Assembly (NCBI RefSeq): GCF_042453785.1
Contig: NC_091671.1
Span: 34,673,001-34,737,000, forward strand
Length of the DNA stretch: 64,000 nucleotides
Source of the DNA: Malus domestica
Taxonomy: Eukaryota > Streptophyta > Magnoliopsida > Rosales > Rosaceae
Reading direction: 5' to 3'
Below, piece by piece: positions 1-38,190 of the stretch (position 1 is the stretch's first letter; every line of letters starts with the position of its first letter). The notes under the pieces are model-generated. The model ran no database searches, had not been told where the DNA came from, and worked only from the letters and a program-made list of their open reading frames with translations. A program made the position numbers and the translations under genes.

Positions 1-1436
1 AACTCTACGTAATTTGATCCTGAAGATCCACACATTGGATTTTTGATCCATAACTTCCCAAAGTCCACATTATGCTTCTAAAACAACATACTATATTCCC
101 ATCGCGATCCGACTGTCGGATCTCCACCAATTACTATAATTAAGTGGCGGTCAACAATTTATTTTACTAACTTAGAAATCCAATTAGGGAAGATACGCAC
201 GTCGGATTCCCGATCCGTAAGTTTCTATGATGCACAAATATTATGTTATATCACACATTAAGGTTTGGTGACGATCCAACGGTTGGGTCGTAGATTCATA
301 TTTTGACAAAGTAAGGTATCGTAATGAAACTAAGTCCAAACAATCAAATTACGTCATACGGATATCAATTATGAAACCAAGGCATTTATTTGAACTTAAA
401 AGGACGTCTTTAACCCACTAGCCAGGCTACCCCGACTTGCCAGAAAAAATCAACTATTTTTAAAAATTACCAAAATTTACAGAAATGAAGCTCTCAATGA
501 GTAGAACAAGTTTTATACCTATGGCCAAGTCCAATTTGGCCGGGAAAAGCCTCCAATTGCCATAAACCCGCCGAAACCCTAGAATTGGGTGTTCTCCAAT
601 TCGTCAAAATTGTAGCTCCGCCGCCCCCAAACTGATTTGGGCTTTGATCCAGGCCTCAAGAGGAGTTGGACAAGGGTGGTGGTCATCGGCGATATCTACA
701 AAACCGGTGGAATTGCCGCCGACACCCATAAATCTCGTCGGATTATTTTCCACTAAAACAAAACCAAATTCCTTCTAATTTCAGGTGGAAATGGAAAAGG
801 GAGGGATAGGGAGTTGTTTGGTAGGGGTGGAAGGTTGTTAATCGCCAGAAAAATGGACGGGAAACCAGTCGGAATTTGTTGTAGCCACGGGTCGGGTCGA
901 GGAATGTCGGGTCAAGGGGAAAGGGGGTCCGGGTTGTGTGTTCCCTCCCCTCCTCCCGTTGGTCTCTCCCCCTTTTCTTTTCTTTTTTCCCTGTCTCTCC
1001 CGCAACTCCCCTCTTTCTTATTATTTTTTTTTTCTTTTTCCTGATTGGTTCCCTTAAACTCCCCCATGAATTGGGTTGGTTCTCCCTTTTTTTCCTTGGT
1101 CACCATTTCCACGGGGAGTTTTAAAGAAATTTAAAATTTATAGTCTAGAAACACCACTTCAGATGTCCGCAACTGTACCGCTATAATCCGGACTTGCAAA
1201 CGGCTTTCGCCTATAAGTTCGTGATTTCAAGATCTATCCAAAAATATAAATTGTGACCTCGAAAGGTCTACGAATTTTAGATAATTAATTTCCAAACTTC
1301 AACTTCGTGACTAGTTTAATTTAAAATCTAAATTCAAATAAATTAATATAATTTCTCGTAAAATAATATAAAGTCTCAATAATACGAATATGTAAATTAT
1401 AACAGTCAAATCCAGGAACAAGATTTCACGTTTATT
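1..1436. other. Intergenic, retrotransposon-like, no gene
   Basis: No reading frame here looks like a gene. The stretch has a pyrimidine-rich run at about 940-1110 and a GC-rich part at 560-760, and its texture resembles the LTR or leader of a decayed LTR retrotransposon. I see no second copy, primer-binding site or polyprotein fragment in the window, so that reading is only inference. Confidence 0.35.
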
Positions 1437-1698
1437 TGTCACATCCCGTGCCCGTTCCACCACCGTAGCACGATAGTATCCGCTTTGGGCTGACCATTCC
1501 CTCACGGTTTTGTTTTTGGGAACTCACGAGCAACTTCCCAGTAGGTCACCCATCCTGGGAGTGCTCTGGCCTCCTTCTCGCTTAACTTCGAAGTTCCTAC
1601 AAAACCCGAAACCAGTGAGCTCCCAAAAAGCCTCATGCTAGGTAGGGATGGGAATATACATTGAAAGATCACTCCCTTGGGCGATGTGAGATGTCACA
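1437..1698 (-). mobile_element. Cassandra-type TRIM LTR carrying 5S rRNA-like sequence
   Basis: The block begins TGTCACATCCCG and ends GATGTCACA. On the minus strand it therefore reads TGTGACATC...GGGATGTGACA, an LTR-like TG...CA. Positions about 1524-1597 match the complement of plant 5S rRNA, including the stretches around AACTTCCCAG, GGTCACCCATCCT and GCTTAACTTCG. A 5S-derived promoter inside a short LTR is the hallmark of Cassandra TRIM elements. Only one LTR is visible and the flanks (ttatt / aagac) do not match, so this is a solo or truncated copy rather than a complete element. It is not a 5S rRNA gene, because the ends of 5S are replaced by LTR sequence. Confidence 0.72.
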
Positions 1699-3249
1699 AA
1701 GACATTAGAGGAAACTCTTCTCTTTTTTATATTAGACAAGTGGGATGCTTGAGTTTATATAGAACTTAGGCCACATTTTTTGAAACAGTATGATTATTGC
1801 CTAAAGTTCCAACGAACAGATACAACTCATGAATTTGAATTTAACTATAACACATTACTCTTATTTTTCTTTCATACACAAATTAAATATTATAATATTA
1901 ATTATAATATATAATTTCCAACACTAACAACAGTGCATCACTCGGAAGTTCATCACTTTATGCCCGACTGTTCGTCACACACCAGACTTGACATTCTTTA
2001 TGAAATAAAAAAACAATGTCATGTCTCACAAATATCATGTATCCATGTCTAATGTTTGATAACAAATATGCGCAACTAATGAATCACATGACATGGTGTT
2101 TTCTTCGAACTGTCTTCCTTAAGCTCTCATGTCAGTCTAATTTGATTTAACAGCTTGCCTAGACACGCCTCTTGGGACAGTAGCTAACTTGACCATCTTA
2201 GATAAACATGCTAAACTAGCGATCATTAAACCACATACCATTGCATCATTATATATAGGTATGTATGTGTGTGTGTGTGTGTATGTGTGTGTGTACACAC
2301 AAGGTTAATGCTATACAATCAAGTACAGCTTTTAAGGATGCTTGAAGACGATATTGAGTTGGATGAACAAGAGAACCCTAGTCTGCAAGTAATCATCCAA
2401 GGAAAGTCTTCTACTCACTCAAGCACTATGCTCTTATGGTGATAGAACCCTAGACTTAGAGCCAATGCTTTGTGAGTAGGGAATTCCTTTTATTAATTGA
2501 TGACTAGCAGCCAACTTCCATCTATCATGGGTGAGTTGGTTATTGTCCCATATCATCACAACGTGGAAGTTATTGAGTAGTGGAGGAACAATTTGTATTC
2601 AAAGCATTTTGAATGTGTTTCCACAAAAATAGGATGTTAACTTTTCCACATATTCAAACTCTATAGGATTATATTATCAACATGTAACCTCTCCTTTATC
2701 ACAACTTGTTAAGTCCAAATAAGATTCTTACATTCTCGTCTCCAGGTGATGGTCTTCTGTCACTCAAGAACCGATAAAGAATTTATGCGTAGAAAGTGAC
2801 AATAACAACAACTTTTTCTCCCCCTTCGTTTTGGCAGTGTTGGAATTCATGGACAGATGAAACACCTTAGCAGAAACCAGAAACGGTTATGGCATTGCAT
2901 TATGGTAAGGGCTACTTAGTCTGGCGGCTTAGAGTAGCAGCTATAAAGCAAAGCCTCATGGATGCCATGGTTTCTGTATCAAATGGAAAAGCATCGACGG
3001 AGAGTTTAGTTTACTGTAGACCAACACTGCTTTTGTATCGACAATATAGGACACCCCATATTTTGTATATATGGACTCCCATCTGTTATCTGTAAGACAT
3101 TAAAGACAGCGAATCTTGTGATGTTCTCTGTTCAAATGGCAACTACATTCTTTTCTTTCATTACACACTTATTTAATTATGTTTGTTCTTTTCATTTGAT
3201 TTTTAGTCAGTTGATCAGAAATAGGGAGGGATATATATATATATATATA
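1699..3249. other. Intergenic; GT microsatellite
   Basis: There is no supported gene. A (GT)n microsatellite lies at about 2264-2295. The part from 2820 to 3110 is less AT-rich and could be decayed exon sequence, but all frames carry stops and I recognise nothing in it. Confidence 0.5.
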
Positions 3250-3462
3250 GGAATCTTTTAACAAGAAGGATCCTCATTTTTCTAAAAAAATAGTGATACC
3301 CTCTTGATCGTTAAATTGGCTTTAATGAAATTGTGTGCTTGAGATTGTATGGCTTGTGATTTAATTTCAACCACACAATTTCATTAAAGTCAATCCAACA
3401 ATCAAGATGGTGTTCTCATTTTTTTTTAGAAAAATGGGATCTCTCTTGTTAAAGGGTTTCAT
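3250..3462. mobile_element. Hairpin MITE between AT and GT microsatellites
   Basis: The two halves are imperfect reverse complements of about 80-90 bp. The left half runs from CTTTTAACAAGA through TTAAATTGGCTTTAATG, and the right half mirrors it from CATTAAAGTCAATCC to TCTTGTTAAAG, with a loop of about 45 bp. It is bordered by (AT)n at 3232-3249 and by (GT)n(AT)n at 3463-3489, which suits a TA-target insertion but hides the exact ends. Confidence 0.6.
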
Positions 3463-4499
3463 GTGTGTGTGTGTGTGTATATATATATAAAGGTTTCGTA
3501 GTGACACTGATAAACCACTGTCTCCTGTTGCAGAAGAACAATCCAAATCCACAGGAAGCGTGTTATACATGCATTTGCTACGAAATTAAATTTGATATGA
3601 TTAATTTTATGTCCTATTTTAATAAAAACGAATTTAATTAATAAAAGCAAACTAATATGCAAAATTAAAAATGGGAAAAAGGAAACAGTTTTGTAGAAAT
3701 CAAGTTAAGAACGCATTAGGGATCCGCCATCACCTTAACAATCCTATATAGTTTTTCAAATCACTTATGACCTATACATGCATATTTCGAAAGTTAGGTT
3801 TTCCTAATATATGCCTACTTGTATGAACATTTTTTTGTCCATTAACCATCACTTTTTCAGTTTCTAATTTGAAATTTGGGCGCTCAATTGTTCAAAAACA
3901 TCCAAATAAAATATAATAGGTACATTCAGAGCGTTGCAAAGAGTAAAACGTATTAATCACCTTCGTGTCATACATGGGATTCACCTATCAATGTGGCCTC
4001 AGTTGTAATCCAATGAACTTATGCAACTATAGTTCTCTACCTAACCAACTACTAGCCTAGTTGGTGTGAAACTTTAATAAACATAAAATAACATGTGTAC
4101 GTTCTCAACTTAACCAACTACTAGCCTAATTGGTGTGAAATTTTAACAACCATTACATAACATGCACGCCTCAGTTGTAATCTAACGAACTTAAAACATA
4201 ATTATAATTCTCAGCTTAACCAACTACTAGCCTTGTCGCAGTATGAAATTTTAACAATCGTAAAAGAACATGAGTTCCTCATTTGTAATCCAATGAAGTT
4301 ATACATAGTTATAGTTCTCCATTAAACCAACTAATAACATAGTTCTCAGCTCAACCAACTACTAGCATAATAAGTGTAAACTTTAACAAAAGGGTACACA
4401 ACAAACTAATCGATAAAGCTAGAATACCGGAGGTCCATTCCAGTCTCTCTGCCTAAGATATATCCAGCATTAAAAAAAAATTAAAGTTTTTCCTTTCTT

Positions 4500-4627
4500 T
4501 TTGGTCGTACCCAGTGCACAAGGCTCCCAGCTTTAAGCAGGGTCTGGGAGAGGTGAATGTCGGCTAGCCTTACCCCCATTTATAGAGAGGCTGCTCCCAA
4601 GTCTCGAACCCGAGACCTACCGCGCCA
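4500..4627 (-). mobile_element. Truncated Au-like SINE
   Basis: On the minus strand the fragment carries a tRNA-type box B (GGGTTCGAGACT, 4602-4613), a GTAAGGCTAGCC segment, CTCCCAGACCCTGC and the terminal GTGCACTGGGTACGACC followed by a pyrimidine tail. That order is the body and 3' end of Au-type plant SINEs. The head with box A is missing, so it is 5'-truncated. The equivalent place in the right arm of the inverted repeat (about 6190-6235) has no SINE, so it arrived after the inverted duplication or was lost from one arm. Confidence 0.68.
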
Positions 4628-4754
4628 ATGTCAGCAATTGCAGGCCGAATGCAGAAGGAGAATATTTCATTAAGTACAGTTCCAAGTTAATGAACAAACC
4701 CGATGGAAAGTACAAAATTACCCATGCTTATATACCAACAGATACAGAAGCATT

Positions 4755-4831
4755 AGTTTAGTTTGTTTTATACAACAACAACAAAGCCTTTTCCCACTAA
4801 GTGGAGTCGGTTAAGTTTAGTTTGTTTTATA
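4755..4831 (+). mobile_element. 41 bp retroposon stub with 18 bp target duplication
   Basis: The 18 bp AGTTTAGTTTGTTTTATA occurs at 4755-4772 and again at 4814-4831, flanking 41 bp that contain AACAACAAAGCC and CCCACTAAGTGG. The mirrored site in the right arm (about 6042-6060) has a single copy of the 18-mer and no insert. A long target duplication around a short stub is what a severely 5'-truncated non-LTR retroposon leaves. Confidence 0.6.
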
Positions 4832-4885
4832 AATAAAAAAATTAACTAGGGAGAAAAACTATTACATTTGGTATACTCACAAATT

Positions 4886-5357
4886 GGCAGCTGATTCTGC
4901 CTTGAGAGGATTCAACCCTTGATCATATTTTCCTAGTGTTGTCTCAACATGGATCATCACGGGCACAACACTTTGCAGGTTCCATCCAAGGACCAAGAAT
5001 CCAGCTTGTTTCGGAGTTTCACGAAAGTAAATCGTTTGGGAAACCTATTGCACTGTGATGGCCACACCATCCAAAATAGTCAAATTGATCTGCTATAAGT
5101 AAAACCAAATTGCGTAATTAAACAAAATGGTACATAAAATAAATATTGAATAATTGATCCATTAGAGAGATTCGTTAAAAAATTATACCTGATCGATTAA
5201 GTATTGCATCACATCTATGTAGGTGCTCACATCCCCAGAGGTGGCTAGATAGTTATGTGGAGCATTAGTAAGCCTATACAACTTTGTCTCCATATTAGAG
5301 AGCACAAACCCATATGAGTTGGTTGTTCTCGAGTCGATCACCACGAAAATTAAATTT
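4886..5357 (-). pseudogene. Decayed unrecognised gene fragment, left-arm copy
   Basis: Two exons can be read on the minus strand. Exon a is about 5357-5189, ending CGATCAG before gtataat. Exon b starts at 5092 after cttatag and runs to about 4886. Joined, they encode a stretch with motifs VVIDSRTTNSYGFVLSN, LYRLTNAP, DVSTYIDVMQYLID and, in exon b, QAGFLVLGWN and VVPVMIHVETTLGKYDQG. An in-frame TAG at 5045-5047 interrupts exon b. I do not recognise the family. The conserved splice signals and the second copy in the right arm argue that this was a real gene before the inverted duplication. Confidence 0.5.
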
Positions 5358-5460
5358 TCTCCAGGAGTATGCAAAATTTAGAGTGTCGTGGGCACCCTTC
5401 GAATACCCTGAAACAATATGATGTTTCATATTGTCTGCTTAAAGATTGGTTGGTTTTTAT

Positions 5461-6795
5461 TATTGTTTCAGGGTATCCGAAGGGTGCCCACGGCACTCTA
5501 AATTTTGCATACTCTTGGAGAAATTTATTTTCATGGTGGTCGACTCCAGAACAACCAATCCATATGGGTTTGTGCTCTCTAATACAAAGACAAAGTTGTA
5601 TAGGCTTACTAACGCTCCACACATCTATCTAGCCACCTCCGAGGATGTGAGCACCTACATAGATGTGATGCAATACTTAATCGATTAGGTATAATTTTTT
5701 TAACGAATCTCTCTAATGGTTCAATTATTCAATATTTATTTTATGTAATATTCTGTTTAATTACCCAATTTGGTTTTACTTATAGCAGATCAATTTGGTT
5801 ACTTTGGACCATCACAGTGTAGTGGGTTTCCCAAAGGATTTACTTTCGTGAAACTCTGAAACAAGCTGGATTCCTCGTCCTTGGATGGAACTCGCAAAGT
5901 GTTGTGCCTGTGATGATCCGTTGAAACAACACTAGGAAAATATAATTCAAGAGTTGAATCATCTCAAGGCAGGATCAGCTGCCAATTTGTGAGTATACCA
6001 AATGGAATAGTTTTTCTCCCTAGTTAATTTTTTTTTTCTTTTTTTTTATAAAACAAACTAAACTAATGTTTCTGTATCTGTTGGTATATAAGCATGGGTA
6101 ACTTTGTACTTTCCACCGGGGTCATTCATCAACTTGGAACTGTACTTAATGAAATATTCTCCTTTTGCATTCGGCCTACAATTGCTGACACTATCACAGA
6201 AGGACTTCTTATGAGATTTTTTTTTTAACTTATAATTCTTTTCTTTTCTTTTTTTTTTTATAGAAAGAAAAAAAAAATTTACTTAAAATTTTTTTTAATG
6301 TTGGATATATCTTTGGACAGAGAGACTGTGTGATTGACCTCTGGTATTCCAGGTTTATAGTTAGGTGGAGGACTATAACTATGTTTAAGTTCATTGGATT
6401 ACAAATGAAGAACGCATGTTCTTTTATGATTGTTAAAATTTCATACCGCGACAAGGCTAGTAGTTGGTTAAGTTGAAAATTATAATTATATTTAAGTTCA
6501 TTAGATTACAACTGAGGCGTACATGTTATTTAATGGTTGTTAAAATTTCACACCGACTAGGCTAGTAGTTGGTTAAGTTGAGAACGCACACATGTTATTT
6601 TATGTTTATTAAATTTTCACACCCAACTAGGCTAGTAGTTGGTTAGGTAGAGAACTATAGTTACGTATAAGTTTATTGGATTACAACTAAGGTCACGCTG
6701 GTGGGTGAATCCCACATATGAGACGAAGTTGATTAATACGTTTTACTCTTTGCAACACTCTCTGAATGTATAAATATCATATTTACTATGGATTT
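5461..6795 (-). repeat. Right arm of a giant inverted repeat
   Basis: This arm is the reverse complement of 3905-5418, with scattered substitutions and small indels. The outermost match is the CTTTGCAAC...CTCTGAATGTA region at about 6750-6780 against TACATTCAGAGCGTTGCAAAG at 3921-3941. It lacks the two retroposon inserts of the left arm but has its own poly-T expansion at 6240-6300. I see no short terminal inverted repeat or target duplication at the outer edges, so a transposon origin is not shown. Confidence 0.9.
5490..5985 (+). pseudogene. Decayed unrecognised gene fragment, right-arm copy
   Basis: This is the mirror copy of 4886-5357, read on the plus strand. Exon a ends at 5688 and exon b starts at 5786 after ttatag. 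Exon a carries FMVVDSRTTNPYGFVLSN, LYRLTNAP and DVSTYIDVMQYLID, but its last codon is TAG where the left copy has CAG. Exon b has further stops, and it lost the frame of the VVPVMIH segment through a short deletion near GATCCGTTGAAAC. The two copies carry different disabling changes, so neither is likely to make a full protein. Confidence 0.5.
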
Positions 6796-7522
6796 TTGAA
6801 CCAAGAATTCAAAAATTCCAAAGTCATAATATAGAAGGTAAGGGTGTATGGAGTGAATGGCTTCAACTAAGCTGTTAGTCGATACCGAGATAACTCAAAT
6901 GAGTAATAAACAATAAAGGCTATACATCTAACATTTACTATAAAAAAACGACTATCTTTATAACCAACCACACCATGTATAGAGAGAAACGTATCAACTG
7001 TACAGTTTCTCTCACTAGAAATGGCCATAGCCCATCAAAATGGAAAATATTTGTATTACCTTACCTTGCAGCAGAAGCAAGCTTAAAAGCATAGTACTGC
7101 AGCTGCATGCAACCTTCAGTCACCACGACTGCTCACACAGTGACTGGTGAAAACGCCCAATACTGCAAATAAGTACGGCCCCGACTAACGGAACTTCCTG
7201 CAATATATAAAAAGCAGGAATCAGTAAACTTTCAAGCTGTTAAACCACCACTAGAATTTTGGCTAAAGGACACCCTTTTCAATGGTGTCTATTATAAACA
7301 ATGGGCACTGACATTGGTGGCAAACCCCAATTGCCACCAAACAACCACTAAATAGAAGTTCATGTCCTATATAGAAGTCTCTATTGCTACAATCACCACC
7401 AATTAGATAATGGTGGCACAATGAATAGTTACACCTTTGAAAAATTATATAATTTCTATACATCGGTGTCCATGTTGTAATATGTTTTTTTTTTAAAAGG
7501 ACCCATTAATCTGGGCACCCAA

Positions 7523-7565
<43 letters not shown>

Positions 7566-7962
7566 ATAGACTGCACAGAATTGCATGTTTGCTGTAGTCT
7601 TCCATAACTAATCACACATTCAAAAAAATAAGGTCTAAAACCAATGAGCTATACTAAAAAATATGAAACTAACCGTCAAAGTACAAAACAGGCACCAAAT
7701 TTGAAGGAAATTGCCACTTAAAAGACTTCACATTTTCTTGAACACCTTCAAACATGTTTTTTAAGATTGACATGCTCCTCATAATACTTGAGCCTCAGTA
7801 ATTGCTATCTCTACCTGCAAACACATAAGCACGTGGATCAAATGACTAAAATATACACAAAAGCATGCCTTTACAGTTTTATTGTTTCCTATAATCTGCA
7901 TAAAAAGCATATACTTGCAAGTATGAGTCTCTAACACTCCACACGAAAAACTGATGTGGCAA
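6796..7962. other. Intergenic; AT microsatellite
   Basis: No gene is supported. An (AT)n run lies at about 7527-7560. The 7250-7480 part has inverted CATTGGTGG/CCACCAA and TTGCCACCA motifs reminiscent of the subterminal region of a DNA transposon, but I could not find matching ends. Confidence 0.4.
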
Positions 7963-10486
7963 CACTACTACAAAATTATCTATTGCTGGCGGTCCAAAAA
8001 CCAACAAGAAACATATATTATTGTCGGATATTATGCAAAATCCGACAGAAAATGGATGCAGTGACGGATATAATAAGCGACAGATTTGCCAGCGTCAGGA
8101 AATGAATTTTCCGACAGAAAATAATCCAAAACTGACAGAACTTGTGTCGGATATAATCGACAGAAAATATATTAATAATGAATAAATAAAAGCATTTTCT
8201 GTTGGATAAAACCGACAAAAAATACTCTAAAACCGACAGAAAATACATATAACCGACAGAATTTGTGTCAGCTATAACCGACAGGAAATTTTAATAATGA
8301 ATAAGTAAATCATTCTCTGTCGGCTACAACCGACATAAAATATATTAATAATAAAAAAAATTAAAAGGACATGAGAGCATTCTCCCTTCTCGTTGAGCAT
8401 TCTTGTCCCCTTCAAAATGATTCCAAATGATCCAGTACTTACAACATGTTCTGCCATATAACTTATCGTCTGTAATTAAGAACAAAAGGTGATGCACGAA
8501 ATACACACATTTTTTCTGATTGTATATAAGAATGATAGCCAAGTATTTGTCCGTAAAAATAGAATGAAAAGTTGGAAAAGTACCAATAAAAAGAACCAAA
8601 TTGAGAAAACTGGAAATATTCTCTACTCATTATTTGCCTCACTTCTATCTCTTACAAAGACATTGATTTTGTCAAATTTCAATTGAGAAAACTGGAGGCA
8701 AAAGGATGAAACAAAATTTGAAAAAGGCATATATGTCATCATATCCTTAGAATACCACAAAATACATCTCAATGCAGTAAGGCAAAAATCAAAAACCCAA
8801 ATGGAAGTCAGAGTCAAAAGCCAAAAAAATAAAAAACCCACCTGGGAAATTGGATAAGTTTGATGGGTTTTTTTCTGCTGGTGGTGGTTTTTTCAGCTGC
8901 TTCCCAATCAATGAATTAAAGACAGAGGAGAGCCTTAAAATGGTAGTTTCATTCATCCACCAAAACCAAACGGAGCTTTAGACGTGTGTGGGGACCTTGA
9001 CCTATCATAAATCCTCAGAAACAAAATTAACAATCACTCAAAGGGAAAGTACGGGGAAGCACTACATCAAAAGGTCAAGTGGCGTACCAGAATTTTGATT
9101 CCGATGTAATGGTTGAGAACTTCTGCATCAAAGGCAGCAGCAGCAAGAGCAGATGATGATGCCGCGATGGGAGTTCAAACTAAACAGCAAAAAATTAGAG
9201 AGAATTGAAGCAAAGAAATATCCAAAAAATTACATTCACATATCCCAAAACAATATAAAACAAAAAAAAATGGAACTTAAATCTGGAAGGAGATGAACAA
9301 ATCGAAGCAAAATTATTTGTACTTGGCAATTGAGAAAAACACCCTGTTCACCTTAATTTTTTTTGCAAGAACCCTCTTTACCTTAGTTTCACCCACAACC
9401 TTCCAAGGCTTCCATTCTTCTCGGCCCAGGTTGGAAACAACAATGATTCACCTTCCTCGTCCCTAATCTTTGACATGCATACAGAAAATGGAATTAAAAT
9501 TTGAAATCTAGAATCGATCCAAAAATTGAAAGTTTTTTTTTTTTTTTTTTGAGAAATCACTTACACTAGGGAACAGCCATGAGGAGAGGATCATTTTTAC
9601 CTCTTGGTTGAGATCCAATTACGGCAGACTATGCCGGAAATTGGCCGGAATACCCACAGTCACCATTTCTTAGATCTGAAATTGAGAAAATTCGGCTACA
9701 AATTTGGAGAAACTAACTTGAGGGTTGGAAAGAGGAAGGGAAGAGGATTCTGGAGGTATAGTTTGACGCTCGTTGGTGACAGGAGGACGGAGCGGCTGCT
9801 GCATGAAAAAGAAGAGGGAGAGAGAGGAAACGGGAGGGAGGAGAGAAAATGAAGGGGGAAGAGAGCGGAGGGAATGAAGGGAAGGAGTTGGAATTTTGTG
9901 AAGGGGAGAGGTTTAATGGTTTTTCAATTTGTGAGGTTTAATGGAATTTTGGAGAAACTACAGAGGCCATGTGATGTAAGATGGAAGGATTTTATTTTGG
10001 AAAAAATGCGGCAGAAATCCCCCCAAAATTCTCTACCAAAATTTTAAATTTTCCTCCCAAATTTTGTTACGATTTTAAAAAATAAAATAATAATTGTTTT
10101 ATTTATTTATTTTTAATCAATATAACATTTTAAAATAATAAAATTTTCATTTCTGTCGGTTATAACCGTCAGAATACTAAAATAATAACCGACAGAAAGT
10201 AAAATAATAAAATAGTTAATTTCTGTCCGTTTATAACTGCCACCATTAACTTAAAAACCGCCAGAATATGTCAAAAATATTATAAAAAAAAAGATTCAAT
10301 AATACTGTCGATTATAACCGACATGATTTTTTTATATCTGCCATTAAATATCCGTCAGGACTTTATGTCGGATATAACCGACATGAATTTTCGAATATCC
10401 ACCACTAATTAAATGATGTGTCGGATATAATTTATCCTACAGGATTTGTCTAATATCCGCCACCTAAAGCTAATATTGTAGTAGTG
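7963..10486. mobile_element. Complete non-autonomous CACTA element
   Basis: The element starts CACTACTACAAAATTA and ends TAATATTGTAGTAGTG, terminal inverted repeats of about 14 bp with the CACTA signature. It is flanked on both sides by CAA, the 3 bp target duplication expected for CACTA (7960-7962 and 10487-10489). Both subterminal zones (8010-8345 and 10150-10450) are crowded with direct and inverted copies of GTCGG(A/T)TATAACCGACA-type motifs, the arrangement of transposase-binding repeats. There is no transposase reading frame in its 2524 bp, so it must be mobilised in trans. An internal segment (about 9340-9930) has a second copy outside the element. Confidence 0.85.
9340..9930 (+). repeat. 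Internal segment duplicated at 11.8-12.3 kb
   Basis: This stretch matches 11782-12310. Shared text includes TTTCACCCACAACCTTCCAAGG, GACATGCATACAGAAAATGG and the purine-rich coding-like run giving the peptide GRGFWRY. It may be a host fragment captured by the CACTA element, or sequence from an older element. The short open frames in both copies differ and I do not regard them as genes. Confidence 0.7.
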
Positions 10487-10689
10487 CAAGTAGATCAATT
10501 TTTCAGCAGATAAATTTATGAGTCTCAACATTTCACAAGTGGTATACTTGCGAGTACATAAATTTTCGATCAATGGATATGGTTATCAATTATGACATCA
10601 AAAACACATTCAAAAGGTAAGACTCACTGTTTTGAACTAGTGGCTTGATGTTATCAATTTACATCAAGGTGAACCATTTATCTAATTTT

Positions 10690-10918
10690 TGGGTCTTATA
10701 TATTACAAATTCAACATCAACACAAGCACCAACAAATTTCAATTTGTTTTCATTTGTTTTTATTCCTTTTTGTTCAACCCAATCAACTTCCTTGAGAAAT
10801 AAAACAAAAGGTAAAGAGAGATAGAGAGAGTTCCCAACCTGGCTCAACTTCGCCTTTGGAAACTAGGCACTGGAAATAGAGATGGACTTGGTGAATATAG
10901 ATAGACTTGGTGGCTCTG
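10690..10918 (-). pseudogene. Exon 1/intron 1 fragment of a 3-hydroxyacyl-CoA dehydrogenase gene
   Basis: On the minus strand this matches the end of exon 1 and the start of intron 1 of the dehydrogenase gene at 52087-54529. Shared exon stretches include AGAGCCACCAAGTC and CTAGTTTCCAAAGG followed by AGCCAGGTTG. Shared intron text continues towards 10690 (CATCAACACAAG against CATCAACATAAAG). The copy has a small internal duplication of the CACCAAGTC segment that destroys the frame, and the rest of the gene is absent. It is a stray, long-diverged duplicate rather than a gene. Confidence 0.65.
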
Positions 10919-13118
10919 AAAACTAAACAATAAGATAAATTTATTAAGTAATTTTATTATGCTCAGATTTTTTTTGCTTCACAAGCTATACAATAAGCAC
11001 AGAACAATCGCCCCACCAACTGGTCCTCACATTACCCACCTAATATCATATATGATATCCTTACCCGAAAAAAAAAAGAGCAAGGAAAAAAATATACAGC
11101 AACTAAAATTACAGATGAGAGTTAAACTCTAGAGTCACTTAAGCTAAAAGTGTGTGCAATAAAAAAACTGAAAATTAAAAAGGAATTTTACCTTCAGCCA
11201 CAAAACTGTGCGGTTCTCTTATCCCTCAAATATACAACAATGAAAGAAGAGAAACTAAGAACGCTAAATAAATTTAAAGAGGAAATTACTTAAAGAGGTA
11301 ATGTATAAATCAAGTTCATAAGGATACCTTTGGATCCCTGTTTTCAGTTAATGGAAGGGGATGAATCCGTTACACCTTTCCAATCGAACTCACAACCTAC
11401 AAGAAAGAGATTTATGCTTATCTTTAGCATATTTGCCATTCAACTTGCACTTAATTCTATGAAAGAGAACAAACTTAGAGCATTACAAGGAGGGAAGACT
11501 CCCTCAATGCATTCGCTATTGACAAATTGTTTCGGACGAGCTTTTTCATTTTTTAAAAGAAGCAACAACTGAAATTGGAACTGCAAAAAGAAATGCCAAT
11601 AGTTAGTGAAAACTGTTAATATGACAGTGCGAAGAAAATGAGATTTCTAAGTGCTCCACAAGAAGCAATATTGTTATAGATAGAAAAAAGAATAACTAGA
11701 ACCTACTAATCCAAAAGATTCAAGACTGGGAGCTTCAACTTTAACTGTAATATCAGTTACCTTGTGGTTAAGGAGAAAATCACCCTATTCACCTTAGTTT
11801 TTTTAGAAGAACCTTGTTCACCTTAGTTTCACCCACAACCTTCCAAGGCTTCCATTCTTCTCGGCCCAGGCAACCTTCTTCGTCCCCAATCTTCGACATG
11901 CATACAGAAAATGGAATTAAAATTCAAAATCTAGAATCGATCCAAAAACTGAAAGATTTTATTTTGAGAAATCACTTACACTAGGGAACGGCCACGAGGA
12001 GAGGATCATTTTTACCTCTTGGCCGAAAATTGGCCTGAAACCCCGCGGTCACCGTTTCTTAGATCTGAAATTGAGAAAATTCAGCTACGAATTTGTAGAA
12101 ACTAACTTAAGGGTTGGAAATAGGAAGGGAAGAGGATTCTGGAGATATAATTTGATGGTCGTTGGTGACCGGAGGACGGACGCCCTACTACATGAAAGAG
12201 AAGAGGGAGAGAGAGGATACGGGAGGGAGGAGAGTGAGAATGAAGGGGAAGCGAGCAGAGAGAATGAAGGGGAGGAGTTGGACTTTTGTGAAGGGGAGAG
12301 AGGTTTAATTGTTTTTTTATTTTGTTTTATTGGTGCCCAATAAATTCTATTGGTGCCCCCAGTTACTCACAAATGCACAAGAAATTACTTTTTAAGAATA
12401 AAGCATACACTAATGGTTGGTGTCTCAAATTTGAAGGCTACCAATATCAATGGCATCCAACTAAAAAGACACCAAAAAATGTTAAGAGTGCTATCTTTCT
12501 ATCTATAGTCATCAATTGCAAATAATGTGCAAACATTGATGTCCTATAGCCATAATTCTCAGCAGTGGACATCAGACAGAATGCTAATGATAAGATATAC
12601 AAAGTTACAGAATAAAACTAACATATGATGGGATATTAATTGTGAAGCTGAGACAACACTTTGTACAACGTCTCTGTGTAGCCAGTCAATATTTGTACAC
12701 AAATAATTAGAGATGAACCTTGACCTAGAATATGAATTACCAGTTAGAGAAGATAGAATAAGATCAAACAAATAATAAAATTAAAATAATAAAAACAATA
12801 ATCACCATCCAACAATTAGCCTTCTCATCACAGAGAGTAGTTGATTGGCTCTATTGCGAAACAGCTTAATACTATCAAAATTAGGAACTTGCAAGGTGCC
12901 ATAAGCAGCGCTCTGTTTTTGCAAGAACATCAAACCCTAAGTAATCTGCTATAAAATAAGCGGACCCACACATGAACCATAATCCAATATATCGATTAAA
13001 CTTGAAGAGATGCAGAAAGTTATCCAAATGAAACCCTAAAATAAAAAACACAAACAGAAAAAATAAGATCTTGATACGTATAAAGGAAGTTTAAGGAAGA
13101 GGAGGATGTGGATGTTAC
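10919..13118. other. Intergenic repeat-derived DNA
   Basis: There is no supported gene. It contains the second copy of the 9.34-9.93 kb segment at 11782-12310. Repeated TTGGTGCCC motifs at 12320-12355 suggest the subterminal part of another DNA element with no identifiable ends. The 80-codon frame at 11330-11572 is isolated, has no recognisable motif and is probably chance. Confidence 0.5.
11782..12310 (+). repeat. Second copy of the 9.34-9.93 kb segment
   Basis: It matches the interior of the CACTA element but lies about 1.3 kb outside its right end, so the segment exists independently of the element. The copies differ by point changes and by a deletion of about 25 bp after CTCGGCCCAGG (TTGGAAACAACAATGATTCACC is present only in the first copy). 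Confidence 0.7.
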
Positions 13119-19554: not shown

Positions 19555-22500
19555 TTAAGCTTCTTCGGGTAGCACAGATTTGCCTCCTAATGCTCCCACT
19601 CTGCGGATATGAATTTGCAAAAGACTTTGCTTGACAAACTCAAAAACGACTTCGTCCCCAGGTAATATCCGGTTGGCTCTACAACATTCTCCCAAACCTG
19701 TTGTCATATCCACACGGCGCTGAGATACCTTGCCGCGAACATTAAGTTTAACGAGCCATGATCTCCCAGTTGGGTCATGAATCATTATACTCTTCTTATT
19801 TAAAAGATCTTCAGCTATGGCTAGTTTCTTCGGAATTGTCTGCAATTTGGAACATCAACAACATCAATGGAGATAAAACTCCATACACAGTGCAATGCTT
19901 GTGGTATTCTAACGATCTCTTTTACCATTTGCAATCATAAGAGGGGAAGTTTTCAAAAATATATATAGTTCGCTTCAGAATTGGATGATAATTAACGTAC
20001 TCACCGCACGGTATTGCCTTGGATTGTTAAAGATTGCTTTAAAACACAAGTTCTTTGATTTGAACACGACGGATTCATTTGATGTTGCTTCTCTGTCATC
20101 GTGTGCAGGTCTCTTCCCCGATATAACATGATTGCCTGCACATTACAAATTGATAAACAGTTTAAGAAAAGAATAAACAAAGCTGCTAGAGAAAATATAT
20201 AGCGAATAACTTACAATTCCTTCTTCCAGAATTGAACACTTTGTTTTCACAATTTTCGTTGTAGTTGTCAGTTTGAAGTTCATTAATTTCTTCTTTTACT
20301 CGAGCCTGTCCGTTGTTAAACAAAGGAATAGAACCGCCAATCCTCCAGCTGTCAGCTATCTCTACATCCTTCTCACAGGCAGTTGTATCATAGATTGCGA
20401 CTTTAAACTTCGATTTGCCATCATATTTGAAAACCAAAAAATCCCCTTTTTCTAAATGATGATCCTTCACAAAATATTGCCAACCATCATCGAAGAATAA
20501 GCCCTTCTTTCTCTCTTCCAATTCCACAGTCCTCCGTAATCCATTGGGGCCTCGAAGAACACATTTGCAAAGTGACCGTCCATTGAAGTTCTTGACGAAC
20601 TTAGGTGGTATACGCTGCAAAATGTAATTGATTTTGTAAAACCAAAGAATATGTGCTTCTCAAAACAGAACTATTAACATGGAAACTCCAATCTGACGAC
20701 TACAAGTCTGCAAATACATTACCTAATCTTAATGGAGATGCCATGCCAATTTCCAATATACCAATTAATTAATTTGTATACAGGATAAAACCTACTTTAT
20801 ATTAACATAAATGACATATGATGTGCCATTAAATATGCGGATCTAAAAAAAGGGTTTAACATGATAGTAAGCGAACAATACAATCACATAAGAAACACAG
20901 TGCTTGAGAAGCACATATCTATTGGTGGTATGTGTTGTGCTAGGATAGCACCAAACCCGTTGGAACCAACTCAAGCTAACCCACAGGAAATTTATCAAAT
21001 GAAATTCAAGAACAAAATATTAAAGACACCAAGATTTTAACGAGGTTCCTCAACAGTCAGTGTAACTGGAGTACGTCCTCGGAGCAGTAGGAGCTCACCC
21101 AATAATCCACTATCAACCAAATGGGAGTTTACAAAGTGTTGGCAATCTCACAACCCAAAACCCCAATACATCCAATAACTCTCACTCACCAAAGAAACAA
21201 ATAGAGAGGGAAATATAGTGAATAATTTCCTCTCTATACAAAGCTCAAAGCTAATACACAAATACAACTTTGATTGAGTGAGTACCAACAAAGAAAGAAA
21301 ATCACCTTTCTTTCTTCTCTTCAAAATGGGGGTGCAGCACCTCTGTTTTTGCTCTATTTTTTCTGCTACGTTTTTTCCTCTCTTATGGCTTCATTACTAC
21401 TCTTCATCAAAAGTAGCAATTACTTCTACTTCAAAAACTCATCCGTGACTTCCCACATAGACCAAGAAAACTTTAGACAAATTCCCTTTTCTTTTCCCCA
21501 AAACAAGGAAGAGACATAATTATTTTGTCTTTTTTTCCTTTTTGATTTGTTTAATCAAAAGTTGGCCACTTGGCCACATACTCCAACAATCTCCACCTTG
21601 GCCAAGTTCCGAAAAACGTCATGATAAGCCAACCAACACAATTAACACACAACATCACTCCCAAACACTAGCAAGAGAACAACTCATGCCGAGCCAAATG
21701 CTCCAAAACTCCTACTGCTCAACGCCTTCTTTATATAGGCAAAATGTGAGCCAAGTTCAAGCAATGAACAAACTTGGCTACACCAACAACCTTAGTCAAC
21801 ATATCAGCGGGGTTGTCTTTAGTTGGAATCTTTTGGAGAATGATTTCCCCTTCACCAACAATTTCACGAACAAAGTGATAACGCACATCTATGTGCTTGG
21901 TCCTCGCATGATGAACCTGATACTTAGCCAAATAAATGGCACTCTGACTATCACAATGTACCTCCACCTGCTTCTGATCAACCCCCAAATCTCTAATCAG
22001 CCCATGTATCCAAATGGCCTCCTTTATAGCTTCAGCAACTGCCATATATTCAGCCTCTGTAGTAGACAAGGCAACAGACGACTGCAAAATGGACCTCCAA
22101 CAAACTGGTCCTTTAGCCATAGTAAACACATAGCCTGTAGTATACTTCCTTCCATCCAGATCACCTGCATAATCTGAATCAACATAACCAACTGCAAAAT
22201 GACCAATACCAGAGTCATCCCTCTCAAAGCATAAACCAACATCTCGAGTACCATGGAGATATCTCAATATCCACTTAGCTGATTGCCAATGCTCTTTACC
22301 TGGATTATGCATATATCGACTCACCATGCCAACTGCATGAGCAATATCCGGTCTAGAGCATACCATTGCATACATCAAACTACCAACCAAATTTGCATAT
22401 GGTATATTTTTCATTTGCAGCTTCTCTTTATCATTTTTAGGACACTGTAGAGAACTCAATTTAAAATGAGGAGCCAAATGGGTACTAACCGGTTTGGTTG

Positions 22501-25500
22501 AATCATGAACTCCAAATTTCCGAATCAACTTTTCAAGGTATTGTCTTTGATTCAAACTGACCAAACCCTTCTCTCTATCTCTAGTGATCTCCATGCCAAG
22601 GATCTTCTTCGCTTCACCAAGATCCTTCATCTCAAACTCATTCTTCATTTGCTTCTTCAATTTTTCAATCTCTTCAACATTTTTTGAGGCAATCAACATA
22701 TCATCAACATATATCAACAAATAAATGAAAGACCCATCTTGCAACTTCTTGAAGTACACACAATGATCATATTGACTTCTAGAATAATTTTGGCCTCTCA
22801 TAAATTTATCAAACCTCAAATACCATTGCCTTGGAGATTGCTTCAAGCCATAAAGTGATTTCTTCAATTTGCAAAACAAATTTTCCTTCCCTTTCACTAT
22901 ATACCCATCCGGTTGACACATATAGATCTCTTCATTCAAATCACCATGTAGGAAAGCCGTCTTCACATCGAGTTGCACAAGCTCAAGATCATATTGTGCA
23001 ACAAGAGCTAACATAATACGAATTGAGGAGTGCTTCACAACTGGAGAAAATATTTCATTGTAGTCAATGCCCTCCTTTTGTGCATACCCTTTAGCAACTA
23101 ATCTTGCTTTAAATCTCACATTGCTTTTCTCATCAGCATCTTCCTTCTTGGCATACACCCATTTGCAACCGATAGCTTTCTTGCCCTTAGGCAATTTAGC
23201 TAACTCCCAAGTCTTGTTCTTCAAGAGAGAATTCATCTCATCACCCATGGCATTGCACCACCTCTTCTTCTCCTCACTCTCAATGGCTTCCTCATAATTG
23301 GATGGAATCTCTTCAGTGATAATAGGAAGAGCAAAAGCAACATAATCACTATACCGAGCTGGCTTGGTAATTTGTCTCTTTCCTCTATTCTTGGCAATAG
23401 ACTCTTGAGGTGAAACTTCCTCTTCAACTTGAATAGAATCTTCAAGTTCAACTTCTTCAACATCCTCATGGTCTCCAACTTCTTCACTTGTAGTGGCTTC
23501 GACATCAGCGGAAATAGGATTTGAAGTACCAGAGGCAACTTTCTCAAGCTCCACCTGTTGGACATCTTTCACATTCTTCTCAGAGACTTTGTACATACTT
23601 TCTTCATCAAATGTCACATCTCTACTGATTACAAGTTTTTTCATCTCTGGGCACCACAACCTGTAACCTTTGACACCACTACTAAAACCAAGAAAGATAG
23701 CATTTTTGGCTCTAGGATCAAGTTTATTTTCAGTCACATGAAAATAAGCAGGTGAACCAAAAATACGGATATAGTCATAATCAGAAGAAGGTTTTCCAGT
23801 CCATACCTCCATTGGTGTCTTACCCTGAACAGCAGCTGAGGGTAACCGATTGATGATGTGACATGCATAATTAACTGCTTCTGCCCAAAATGACTTGCTT
23901 AAACCCGACTGGGACAACATACATCTAACCTTCTCAAGCAAGGTTCGATTCAATCTTTCTGCAACTCCATTTTGTTGTGGAGTTCCCCGAACACTGAAAT
24001 GTCTCACAATTCCTTCCTCTTTACAAACTTTAAAGAAAGGATCGGATGTGTATTCACCACCATTATCCGACCTCAAAATCTTAATCTTTCTCCCAGTCTG
24101 GTTCTCAACCATTTTCTTCCAACCCAAGAAAATGCTTAACACCTCACTCTTATGCTTCATAGTGTAGACCCAAGACCTTCTTGAATAATCATCAACAAAG
24201 GTCACGAACCAATGTCTACCACTCAAAGAGGGAGTCTTTGTAGGACCCCAAACATCCGAATACACATAATCAAGAATGCCCTTCGTCTGATGTACAGCAG
24301 TACCAAACTTCACTCTAGTTTGCTTCCCCAAGACACAATGCTCGCAGAAATCAAGTTTACAAGTCGTGGCACCTTTTAAAAGACCTTGTTTCACAAGCCC
24401 TTGTAGAGCTTTCTCACCAGCATGGCCTAATCTCATATGCCACAGTCTAGTAGTATCTGAATCAGATGTACCCATATTTTCTGAGACTACAGATGCTTCA
24501 CCTGTCACAGTGCTTCCCTGCAATAAATACAAATGGCCACATCTAGGAGCTTTCATCACAATAAGTGCACCATAAATAACTTTCAATGTATATCCATCTG
24601 AATGAAACCTGAAACCCTTAGATTCCAAAGTACCCAAAGAAATAAGATTTTTCTTCAAATTCGGTACATACCGAACACCTGTCAACTCTTTAACCATGCC
24701 ATCATGCAACTTCAAACGAACTGTACCAATCCCTTTTGTTGTGCAAGGATTGTCATCTCCCATGAACATAACGCCACCATCAAACTCTTTCAAGCTTGAA
24801 AACCAATCCTTGTGAGGAGTCATATGATGAGTACAACCCGTATCCAACACCCACTTAGTAGCACAATCAAATGATGAGGAAGTGGTTAAAGCAAAATCAG
24901 AAAAATTTGTTTCAACCTCAGCAACATTAGCTTCAGAACTTTCTTTGCCTTTGGTCTTCAATTTAGGACAATCTTTCTTCCAATGGCCCTTATTACGACA
25001 AAAGGCACATTCATCTCTTTCCAAAGGTTTTCTACCTTTAGAGTTTCCTCTAGGTCGAGACTGTGATTTTTTCCTACTAGAAGATGATCTTCTCTCCGAT
25101 GATCTACCTCTAACAAATAAAGCTTCAGAGGTACTATCATGATTTTTATCTCTATGCCTCATTTCATAATTCATCAAGGCATTTGACACATCTTCAAATT
25201 TCACAGTTTCTTTACCATGCATAATAGTGGTAACAAAATGCTCATAAGAGTCCGGCAAGGAATTCAACAATATTAAGGCCTTATCTTCATCCTTAATATC
25301 CTCATCTAAATTTAACAAGTCGGCAATCAACTTATTAAAAGCATCAAGGTGTCTAATCATTTTTGTACCTTCTTTGTATTGGAAGCGGTAGAGCTTTTTC
25401 TTCAAGTGTAGCCGGTTCTCTGCACTCTTCGTCATATACTTGTCTTTCAATTTTTGCCACAACACACTTGCTACCGTCTCCCGCATCACAAAATACTTCT

Positions 25501-26871
25501 GAGTTTTTGCAAGGCACAACCGAATTGAAGAGCAAGCCCACAAATTTAATTTCTCCCATTCCGGCTTCGACATAGCTTCTGGCTTCTCTCCCAAAGCGGT
25601 AAGTAGATCTTGTTGAGCCAACACATCTTTGACCTCACATTGCCACATCCCAAAGTTGTTTGTGCCATCAAACTTTTCCACTTCGAACTTTGCATTTTGC
25701 ACCGTAGTTCTTGCAAACCCGGAGCTGCTTCCAAAAGGATTTTCATCTTGCCCGTCTGACATCTTTGGCAACTAGACAGTACCCAAGAGCAACCAGTGCT
25801 CTGATACCAATTGTTGTGCTAGGATAGCACCAAACCCGTTGGAACCAACTCAAGCTAACCCACAGGAAATTTATCAAATGAAATTCAAGAACAAAATATT
25901 AAAGACACCAAGATTTTAACGAGGTTCCTCAACAGTCAGTGTAACTGGAGTACGTCCTCGGAGCAGTAGGAGCTCACCCAATAATCCACTATCAACCAAA
26001 TGGGAGTTTACAAAGTGTTGGCAATCTCACAACCCAAAACCCCAATACATCCAATAACTCTCACTCACCAAAGAAACAAATAGAGAGGGAAATATAGTGA
26101 ATAATTTCCTCTCTATACAAAGCTCAAAGCTAATACACAAATACAACTTTGATTGAGTGAGTACCAACAAAGAAAGAAAATCACCTTTCTTTCTTCTCTT
26201 CAAAATGGGGGTGCAGCACCTCTGTTTTTGCTCTATTTTTTCTGCTACGTTTTTTCCTCTCTTATGGCTTCATTACTACTCTTCATCAAAAGTAGCAATT
26301 ACTTCTACTTCAAAAACTCATCCGTGACTTCCCACATAGACCAAGAAAACTTTAGACAAATTCCCTTTTCTTTTCCCCAAAACAAGGAAGAGACATAATT
26401 ATTTTGTCTTTTTTTCCTTTTTGATTTGTTTAATCAAAAGTTGGCCACTTGGCCACATACTCCAACAGTATGACCCTCAGAAACCTCACTTTTCCGGTAG
26501 ACGTGCTATGGTGGCAAATTTGCCTCCTTAATGTGCACCCGCTAGTGAGAAGTAGTTTCAAACACGAACCATGAACAGGTTATTATCAACCTTCAACTAG
26601 CTAGAATTCATGGGCATCTTTCAGAATCTAACATATTGATTAAACTTAAGGGCGCCGAAGATTTGTCTTGGAAGAAAAAAAGAACCGAACAGACAGAAAT
26701 CAAGAAAGCAGAAAGAAGAGAGAGATTCTTGATTCTTGATTCATGAATCTTAAAATTATAGGGAGAAAGAAGTCTGAGGGTGTTACGTACCAGATGCCGG
26801 GAGAAGTCACCGAGTAGGATAGTGTAGAAAGATTGTTTCTTTTGTGAATGCTTCACTAGTTTCCTTGCCAT
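19555..26871 (-). CDS. Two-domain B3 (REM/VRN1-like) protein, copy 2, split by a Copia element in intron 1
   Basis: Exons are 26791-26871, 20215-20614, 20005-20135 and 19555-19839. They total 897 bp, giving 298 residues with all phases compatible. Exon 1 encodes MARKLVKHSQKKQSF...GDFSRHL and lies 6.2 kb upstream of exon 2, because a 5.5 kb Copia element (20933-26467) sits in intron 1. B3 domain 1 has RIPPKF, GWQYFVKDHH and LVFKYDG. B3 domain 2 has TIPKKLA, DPTGRSWLVKL, GDEVVFEFVKQS. Without the insertion the intron would be about 640 bp. The frame is intact, so the allele may still work if the long intron is spliced. The element is in the same orientation as the gene, so its polyadenylation signals could cut transcripts short. 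Confidence 0.82.
20933..21588 (-). repeat. 3' LTR of the Copia element
   Basis: It is the downstream LTR in element orientation, 656 bp, identical by eye to 25812-26467. The 81-codon frame inside it appears unchanged in both LTRs and simply reflects their identity. Confidence 0.93.
21731..25771 (-). CDS. Copia gag-pol polyprotein, 1346 residues, intact
   Basis: This single frame encodes the polyprotein that is cut into capsid and enzymes for retrotransposition. In order: a gag core (about 30-210); a CCHC zinc knuckle (C255, C258, H263, C268); an aspartic protease with D310-T-G in LDTGCTHHM; the GAG-pre-integrase LWHMRLGHAG (443-452); an integrase with D506, D569 and E605 (DD35E spacing); reverse transcriptase with YVDD at 1021-1024; and RNase H ending near ADMLTK (about 1322). 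The integrase-before-RT order defines Copia, and the tail resembles the Tnt1/Tork group. The start lies 40 bp inside the 5' LTR. No stop or frameshift is present, as expected for a young copy. Confidence 0.95.
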   Translation of the reverse strand: MPKMSDGQDENPFGSSSGFARTTVQNAKFEVEKFDGTNNFGMWQCEVKDVLAQQDLLTALGEKPEAMSKPEWEKLNLWACSSIRLCLAKTQKYFVMRETVASVLWQKLKDKYMTKSAENRLHLKKKLYRFQYKEGTKMIRHLDAFNKLIADLLNLDEDIKDEDKALILLNSLPDSYEHFVTTIMHGKETVKFEDVSNALMNYEMRHRDKNHDSTSEALFVRGRSSERRSSSSRKKSQSRPRGNSKGRKPLERDECAFCRNKGHWKKDCPKLKTKGKESSEANVAEVETNFSDFALTTSSSFDCATKWVLDTGCTHHMTPHKDWFSSLKEFDGGVMFMGDDNPCTTKGIGTVRLKLHDGMVKELTGVRYVPNLKKNLISLGTLESKGFRFHSDGYTLKVIYGALIVMKAPRCGHLYLLQGSTVTGEASVVSENMGTSDSDTTRLWHMRLGHAGEKALQGLVKQGLLKGATTCKLDFCEHCVLGKQTRVKFGTAVHQTKGILDYVYSDVWGPTKTPSLSGRHWFVTFVDDYSRRSWVYTMKHKSEVLSIFLGWKKMVENQTGRKIKILRSDNGGEYTSDPFFKVCKEEGIVRHFSVRGTPQQNGVAERLNRTLLEKVRCMLSQSGLSKSFWAEAVNYACHIINRLPSAAVQGKTPMEVWTGKPSSDYDYIRIFGSPAYFHVTENKLDPRAKNAIFLGFSSGVKGYRLWCPEMKKLVISRDVTFDEESMYKVSEKNVKDVQQVELEKVASGTSNPISADVEATTSEEVGDHEDVEEVELEDSIQVEEEVSPQESIAKNRGKRQITKPARYSDYVAFALPIITEEIPSNYEEAIESEEKKRWCNAMGDEMNSLLKNKTWELAKLPKGKKAIGCKWVYAKKEDADEKSNVRFKARLVAKGYAQKEGIDYNEIFSPVVKHSSIRIMLALVAQYDLELVQLDVKTAFLHGDLNEEIYMCQPDGYIVKGKENLFCKLKKSLYGLKQSPRQWYLRFDKFMRGQNYSRSQYDHCVYFKKLQDGSFIYLLIYVDDMLIASKNVEEIEKLKKQMKNEFEMKDLGEAKKILGMEITRDREKGLVSLNQRQYLEKLIRKFGVHDSTKPVSTHLAPHFKLSSLQCPKNDKEKLQMKNIPYANLVGSLMYAMVCSRPDIAHAVGMVSRYMHNPGKEHWQSAKWILRYLHGTRDVGLCFERDDSGIGHFAVGYVDSDYAGDLDGRKYTTGYVFTMAKGPVCWRSILQSSVALSTTEAEYMAVAEAIKEAIWIHGLIRDLGVDQKQVEVHCDSQSAIYLAKYQVHHARTKHIDVRYHFVREIVGEGEIILQKIPTKDNPADMLTKVVGVAKFVHCLNLAHILPI
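25812..26467 (-). repeat. 5' LTR of the Copia element
   Basis: It is the upstream LTR in element orientation and should carry the element's promoter, directed into the gag-pol gene and on towards exons 2-4 of the host B3 gene, which lie on the same strand. Confidence 0.93.
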
Positions 26872-35486: not shown

Positions 35487-35819
35487 AGTAAATTACATTT
35501 TACCCTTTCAAGTACGAGATCAATTGCAATCTTATATAATATGTTTAAAATATTTCAATTTTATATATTTAGTTATATTTCTTTTTAGTTTCATACATCT
35601 GTTAAAAAATCAATTAAGTTAATCGTTAAATGATGACAGGTTAAATGTAAGGTTCATATTTGTGCTGACATGAATGCCAACTTTGAACCATGTGAATAAA
35701 AAATAATAATAAAATATTATTTAATAAAAAATCAATTTTTTTATAATTAAAAACTTAAAATTTTGAAAAGATGATCGGGCAGCTTGGTGAAGGAATTTTT
35801 TTATTTATTTTTTGCCGTC

Positions 35820-36470
35820 GTCCCCAATAATCCAGTCCTCTACATCAGTTCACTCTCCTATACACTTCCAATCACCATCACCAGAACCCACGATCTCACA
35901 ACTCGCTCGTAGCTGGGTCCGTTCCGTCACTCTCGAGTTGGATCTCAACATGACTCAGTAGGGCGAAAGGAAGATCCGATGGAGGGGCTCCACTCGGTTC
36001 AACCCCAACACCTCAATTCCATCCGACGAGGTGGATGTGGACAACCCCCGCCTTGATGTTCTCATGCTAAAGCTCCGTGCTGTTCGCGGCCAATGAGGTC
36101 ACGAAAGACTCGCCAAGACAGTGATTGAGGACGACGCTGAATGAGGACGGATCGTTGTCAGTTCAAGAAGCTGTAGCAGTGCATGAAGCTACCGCGGCGG
36201 CATCGTTTGTGACGGAAGAAGCCGACGAGGGGGGAGAAGAAGGTCGTCGGGAGAGATGGGTGCGGCGTCGGGGACGGCAAAGCCGGTAAGGATGTCGTTG
36301 ATGGACTTGTTGGAGACGAACAGGCAGATGGGGATGGAGTCGAATCAAGGAGGAGGCGGCGACAGAAGAAGCGTCCCAAACCAAGAATCAAATTCTTGGT
36401 TACGGACAACCACATAGGAAATGGGATGGAGTCGAGAAAAAGATGGGGTTATTGGGGCAAGCTTTGCCCA
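35820..36470 (+). pseudogene. Gene-like GC-rich fragment captured in the outer element
   Basis: This stretch is much richer in G and C than its surroundings and reads on the plus strand as broken coding sequence: the segments RWRGSTRFNPNTSIPSDEVD, LMLKLRAVRG and SLMDLLETNRQMG are separated by stops and frame changes. I do not assign a family with confidence. It looks like cDNA or exon sequence from a host gene carried inside a non-autonomous element (Pack-MULE style). An alternative is that the element jumped into an old pseudogene. Confidence 0.45.
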
Positions 36471-36714
36471 GATCCTCTTTTCAATTTTTTTTTAGTTTTT
36501 AATTAGGAGTAATTAGGTTTTCATCCTTATTTTTACTACTCTATTGATTAAAACCTTATTACTTTTCAATTTTTGATCAAGGTCCTTTGTATTAATAATA
36601 TCATTAATTATTTCAATAATAAAATATTTTTTATTTCTAAATATATTCATTTAATATTAAAAATGTTACAATTAGTATATTTATATTTATGGCTAAATTT
36701 TTTATCATATATTT

Positions 36715-36975
36715 TTATTTTTAGTTTGTACCCATTTTTAATTTGCAACCCTTTTTTAATTTGTACCAATTTTCCTTTCAATTTTAATTTGTACCCATAT
36801 ATTAATTTCTTTTTGTGCCCATATTTTTTAAAGTTTTATTTGTATTGTACCCATATTTTTTTATTTATTTGTACCCATTTTTATTTTTGCTAAATGTACC
36901 CATTTTGAAGAATGTACCCATGTTTTGATACAATAATTTTTTGGTTATTTTTTTATGAATGTACCCATGTTTACA
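36715..36975 (+). repeat. Degenerate array of TGTACCCAT motifs
   Basis: About ten copies of (T/A)TGTACCCAT or near matches lie within 260 bp, separated by T-rich spacers of 15-40 bp. The regular motif with irregular spacing resembles subterminal protein-binding repeats of DNA transposons. The 106-codon frame across it is low complexity and not a gene. Confidence 0.6.

Positions 36976-37729: not shown

Positions 37730-37762
<33 letters not shown>

Positions 37763-38128: not shown

Positions 38129-38190
<62 letters not shown>

Follow-up and report, generated by a model that had tools for sequence, protein, structure and literature searches.

Plant inverted repeats with gene-like arms can be processed into small RNAs, and two such loci are among the closest counterparts of the one that we report here. 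In soybean, an inverted repeat of the aquaporin gene NIP6-1 on Gm14 is composed of 621-bp repeats lying about 1 kb apart, with mapped small RNAs and with matching genes elsewhere, and the inverted repeats of CHS provide a further precedent from the same report (PMC3534067). For the Arabidopsis locus IR71, a precursor was detected and is processed into endogenous inverted-repeat siRNAs (PMC4687873). The inverted duplication of pseudogenes is also among the proposed origins of MIRNA genes (PMC3237417).

The locus described here lies in a 64-kb stretch of the Malus domestica genome (the window), which corresponds to positions 34673001-34737000 of contig C11 (NC_091671.1) within a 651-Mb assembly of 19 contigs. 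We consider it likely that a pseudogene fragment was duplicated here in inverted orientation and has since been decaying neutrally; siRNAs are possibly made from it. The structure, the divergence of the arms, the insertions, and the lack of a conserved core are observed directly, and a single event, the parent gene, and neutrality are the parts of this reading that we infer.

Structure of the inverted repeat

A local alignment in which positions 3880-5440 were compared to 5440-6830 in reverse-complement orientation identified two arms that are reverse complements of each other from end to end, the left arm measuring 1,533 bp and the right arm 1,349 bp, with a short loop between them:

3886-5418, minus strand (gene sense): left arm (alignment and inverted-pair listing)
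5419-5460, no strand: loop of 42 bp, adjoining the 3' end of the former intron upstream of exon A (alignment and inverted-pair listing)
5461-6809, plus strand (gene sense): right arm (alignment)

The arms are identical at 1,196 of 1,314 aligned pairs (91.0%; K2P, 0.097), and the 118 mismatches comprise 80 transitions and 38 transversions. Gap columns number 35 in the left row of the alignment and 219 in the right row, and the left arm exceeds the right by 184 bp. Among the 16 inverted pairs found in positions 1-12000, 10 represent the arms in register, another 5 arise from cross-matching between tandem units of the arms, and 1 is unrelated. Similarity does not continue past the outer ends, given that 3401-3885 and 6810-7300 align with a score of 20.4 compared to a mean of 30.8 for 100 shuffles. 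The inverted repeat is therefore real, and the head-to-head arrangement with a 42-bp loop noted in an initial annotation of this DNA is borne out by the alignment. Its description of the arms as near-complete reverse complements holds for their end-to-end alignment but is slightly generous in view of the 9% divergence and the longer left arm.

Several other repeats and duplications occur in the window. A MITE-like hairpin at 3277-3432 has two 70-nt arms that are 79% complementary and 16 nt apart, flanked by TA and TG runs. Two 300-nt stretches at 20933-26111, which are 100% identical and 4,879 bp apart, surround an open frame of 1,346 codons (21734-25771), an arrangement suggestive of a very recent LTR retrotransposon. 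Short GA-rich tandem repeats at about 37.4 to 38.3 kb are framed by a pair of inverted arms, 233 and 227 nt long, at 35488-38860, and duplicated MatE transporter genes, 79 to 85% identical in four stretches, are located at 31861-33841 and 44551-46586. A Pfam search with nine open frames of the window matched seven of them: three B3, two MatE, one 3-hydroxyacyl-CoA dehydrogenase, and one LRR-kinase.

Arm-specific insertions and age of the duplication

The left arm carries the following repeats and insertions:

4032-4405, plus strand: diverged direct repeats of the outer left arm, 66 to 88% identical to the copies taken as reference (repeat listing and alignment)
About 4503-4623, minus strand: dispersed-repeat fragment, left arm only (genome matches and aligned copies)
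4773-4813, no strand: 41-bp insertion found in the left arm alone and flanked by direct repeats of 18 bp at 4755-4772 and 4814-4831

Counterparts of the direct repeats are present at 6360-6692 in the right arm, so these tandem units are older than the inversion. About 90 bp around 4321-4412 in the left arm is absent from the right. The dispersed-repeat fragment is presumably a SINE, judging by a tRNA-like motif; a tRNA scan of the window at bacterial settings returned no genes. Among the matches listed in the genome search, 41 of 44 fell on window positions 4487-4626, i.e., on this fragment, which is a lower bound given that 40 of 474 candidates were scored. Four of the five aligned copies run along 4503-4623 and go on beyond the point at which the window copy stops, while the fifth is from the other strand and is misaligned. 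The site of the 41-bp insertion is single in the right arm. Both left-arm insertions most likely postdate the duplication. Plant substitution rates lie between 4e-9 and 1.3e-8 per site and year, and at these rates the K2P distance of 0.097 would date the duplication, very roughly, to 4 to 12 million years ago.

Decayed exons and the probable parent gene

The same two exons, here called A and B, were found in both arms, with splice sites placed by eye:

5189-5407, minus strand: exon A, left arm; donor CAG/GTATAA
4881-5089, minus strand: left copy of exon B, which contains an LCB2/SPT2-like stretch at 5029-4949 and, upstream of it, one in-frame stop
5472-5688, plus strand: exon A, right arm; begins after TTTCAG, with a stop directly before GT
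5789-5988, plus strand: exon B, right arm; acceptor TATAGCAG, donor GTGAGT; LCB2/SPT2-like stretch at 5841-5918

The peptides DVSTYIDVMQYLID and QAGFLVLGWN are common to the two arms. In the left arm, the frame is open over most of exons A and B except for two stops in that same frame, one inside exon B and one near the start of exon A. In the right arm, exon A terminates in a stop codon, and exon B is without 8 bp that are found in the left copy, which shifts its frame. These lesions agree with the earlier view of the arms as two dead copies carrying broken exons of one gene.

That gene had been called unknown. The Pfam search of the exon peptides gave no match up to an E value of 10, although HMMER filters may drop weak hits. 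Searches against PDB chains, for which no protein family was specified beforehand, point to a parent resembling LCB2/SPT2. A profile built from both arms had four hits, all of them SPT2/LCB2 (E values of 0.0021, 0.0022, 0.72, and 0.73), and the left peptide alone had two, both to serine palmitoyltransferase 2 (E values of 0.034 and 0.035). With a composite query of mixed frames, SPT2 came fourth and fifth of five hits (E value of 1.6), below two glycosidases and a galactosyltransferase. When Arabidopsis LCB2a was searched by tblastn in the 64-kb window, the arms ranked first and second (E values of 0.005 and 0.064), and a second LCB2a query sequence left these ranks unchanged. A frameshift-tolerant comparison with LCB2a scored 63 for the right arm and 54 for the left, and the maximum among 300 shuffled proteins, run for the right arm only, was 51. 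The signal sits in exon B, which aligns to residues 376-402 of chain 7yjo_B. Against SPT2/LCB2, identity is 46% over 26 residues and 41% over 27, and exon A alone scores no better against LCB2a than shuffles do, 200 of 1,000 (right) and 142 of 1,000 (left) of which reach its score. The parent was thus probably an LCB2/SPT2-like gene, a reading with moderate support from one exon.

We also weighed whether the exons could come from a proteasome beta-subunit-like gene, which would be compatible with any origin of the inverted repeat. In pairwise alignment, the left peptide scored 62 with beta-1, 55 with beta-6, and 49 with beta-4 (7qve_r), values reached by 0, 0, and 3 of 1,000 shuffles, respectively, in a comparison chosen after the left peptide had been seen by eye to resemble proteasome beta subunits. 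The score of the same peptide with LCB2a was 57 (0 of 1,000 shuffles), below that for beta-1, and the right peptide, taken without the SPT2-like stretch, favored beta-1 (15 of 1,000 shuffles reaching the score) over LCB2a (243 of 1,000), with corresponding counts of 25 for beta-6, 117 for beta-4, and 271 for beta-5. However, beta-5 reached only 28 with the left peptide, a score attained by 378 of 1,000 shuffles, and proteasome chains were absent up to an E value of 10 from the three PDB searches, yet 22 distinct beta-4-like PDB sequences exist. The empty Pfam result counts against a proteasome parent as well. In tblastn searches of the window with beta-1 and with beta-4, the arms are absent from the top five places of either query. 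A proteasome origin of the exons is therefore an unlikely alternative that retains some weight, and we prefer LCB2/SPT2 as the putative parent.

Predicted fold, arm divergence, and genomic relatives

If positions 3905-6795 were transcribed as one RNA, the product would be predicted to form a long double-stranded stem, as had been proposed from the letters of the DNA. The modeled minimum free energy was -1873.9 kcal/mol for the plus strand and -1898.6 kcal/mol for the minus strand, and this predicted pairing was far above chance, given that 10 dinucleotide shuffles of the plus strand had a mean of -648.2 kcal/mol and a lowest value of -675.1 kcal/mol. The predicted structures contained 23 (plus) and 21 (minus) uninterrupted arm-to-arm helices of at least 21 bp, the longest of which spanned 55 and 64 bp, respectively. 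This geometry of long, near-complementary arms would suit an endogenous inverted-repeat siRNA locus, in which a single RNA is diced by DCL2/3/4 and silences relatives or the locus in cis, and the soybean and Arabidopsis loci introduced above offer precedents (PMC3534067, PMC4687873).

Two results argue against an siRNA locus of this kind. First, pairing between the arms decays as expected at random. Identical positions made up 199 of 217 in exon A, 199 of 217 in the exon B range (4880-5106, which includes about 17 bp of intron), 78 of 83 in the intron range, and 370 of 402 in the outer part, indicating that the exons are no better kept between the arms than the intron. We set aside 310 left-arm positions, covering the stretch peculiar to the left arm, the region of the SINE, and the 41-bp insertion together with the bases around it. 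The remaining mismatches were random along the arms when compared to 2,000 permutations, both by the longest identical run (48 positions, spanning a removed insertion; P = 0.67) and by dispersion (P = 0.11). Runs of at least 21 identical positions numbered 16, compared to 14.8 expected (standard deviation, 2.2), and the arms contained no miRNA-like core or block of preferentially kept pairing.

Second, the inner part of the arm has no close target in the genome. A search of the 651-Mb assembly with 4850-5420, a query of 571 bp that covers exons A and B of the left arm with their intervening intron, gave four matches from two candidates, both of which were scored: the two arms themselves and two other pieces, C11:33758443-33758576 and C11:33758974-33759107. 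The latter are 134 bp each and 70% identical to window positions 5283-5420; these exon A-like pieces lie on opposite strands, 397 bp apart and 0.92 Mb from the locus in the window. The assembly thus holds no near-identical relative or parent of the inner 571 bp. By the general rules for plant siRNAs, an identity of 70% is too low for efficient targeting. Since only these two pieces were found, the inner arm has no evident silencing target. Silencing of intact relatives by siRNAs, an idea raised in the initial annotation, loses ground on these findings together with the lack of a miRNA-like core and of excess exon conservation. We regard a functional siRNA locus as quite unlikely, and we favor instead a duplicated pseudogene fragment in decay.

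Origin of the locus

A foldback or Pack-type DNA transposon, in which long inverted repeats hold captured exons, could account for the symmetry, for the exons with their introns, and for the diverged subterminal tandem units, and the second inverted pair with exon A elsewhere would fit it too. One 8-bp word also occurs near both outer ends (3891-3898 and 6808-6815), but the left occurrence falls within the aligned arm, 590 of 2,000 shuffled pairs of the flanks likewise shared an 8-mer, and inspection of the adjoining bases by eye revealed no terminal inverted repeat. No shared word of 9 to 12 bp links 3861-3930 with 6751-6830. Judging by the strands of the matches, the sense directions converge in the distant pair and diverge in the window; its junction therefore differs from that of the locus described here, and the pair does not represent the same element. 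The inner part, moreover, has no further copy in the genome. With no target-site word of at least 9 bp, an 8-mer no rarer than in shuffles, and no outward extension of the similarity, we consider the transposon reading very unlikely.

The second exon A-like pair, 0.92 Mb away, is not accounted for by a single duplication event. In a further reading, at least two separate inverted duplications on this chromosome would derive from one dead fragment, with copies divergent here and convergent there, and their hairpin siRNAs would act mutually or on a remaining diverged gene, which strikes us as highly improbable.

A young MIRNA gene arising under the inverted-duplication model would agree with one proposed route of MIRNA origin (PMC3237417). 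The block of preferential pairing that would speak for such a gene is missing from the arms, and none of the 12 Rfam matches listed up to an E value of 1 for positions 3001-7500 attained the gathering score, although a new gene need not match. The arms are also far longer than a MIRNA foldback, and we give this reading next to no credence. Chimeras that join a sequence to its own reverse complement occur in sequencing libraries, but an assembly artefact of this type, which the initial annotation had allowed for, can practically be dismissed because the arms are 9% apart, with transitions and transversions at 80:38, and because two insertions are present in the left arm only, one of them between 18-bp direct repeats at a site that is single in the right arm.

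We therefore return to the inverted duplication of a pseudogene fragment, for which we propose the following course. The fragment would have comprised two exons and pieces of intron, probably from an LCB2/serine palmitoyltransferase-2-like gene, together with about 800 to 950 bp of adjoining DNA that contained the tandem units. Its duplication in inverted orientation may have placed the junction inside an intron and left the 42-bp spacer. With neither copy under visible selection, the arms would then have drifted to 91% identity, and two insertions would have entered the left arm. If the locus were read from a neighboring promoter, the hairpin RNA could be cut by DCL2/3/4 into 21- to 24-nt siRNAs, which would act mostly on their own locus because the genome search with the inner arm turned up no close relative.

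Comparison with known systems

The locus offers a clear case from nature of a gene fragment that was duplicated in inverted orientation and is now partway through its decay, and the later insertions put the events in order. If small RNAs are made from it, it would be a hairpin locus with no close target for its inner part and could help in asking if loci of this type survive by chance. Otherwise, it would be ordinary genome debris. Unlike SPT2/LCB2, to which its exon B is compared above, it is not a working gene.

The locus has the geometry of the inverted repeats described in other plants but showed none of the functional marks within reach of the analysis. It shares with the MIRNA-origin model the inverted duplication of a pseudogene fragment but differs in that it has no miRNA-like core and its decay looks random (PMC3237417). 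Soybean NIP6-1 has matching genes elsewhere, whereas the genome search with the inner arm of the locus described here gave no close relative; both are plant inverted repeats that resemble gene exons over hundreds of base pairs (PMC3534067). The resemblance to IR71 lies in a very long stem formed from one transcript, which in our case is a predicted fold (PMC4687873).
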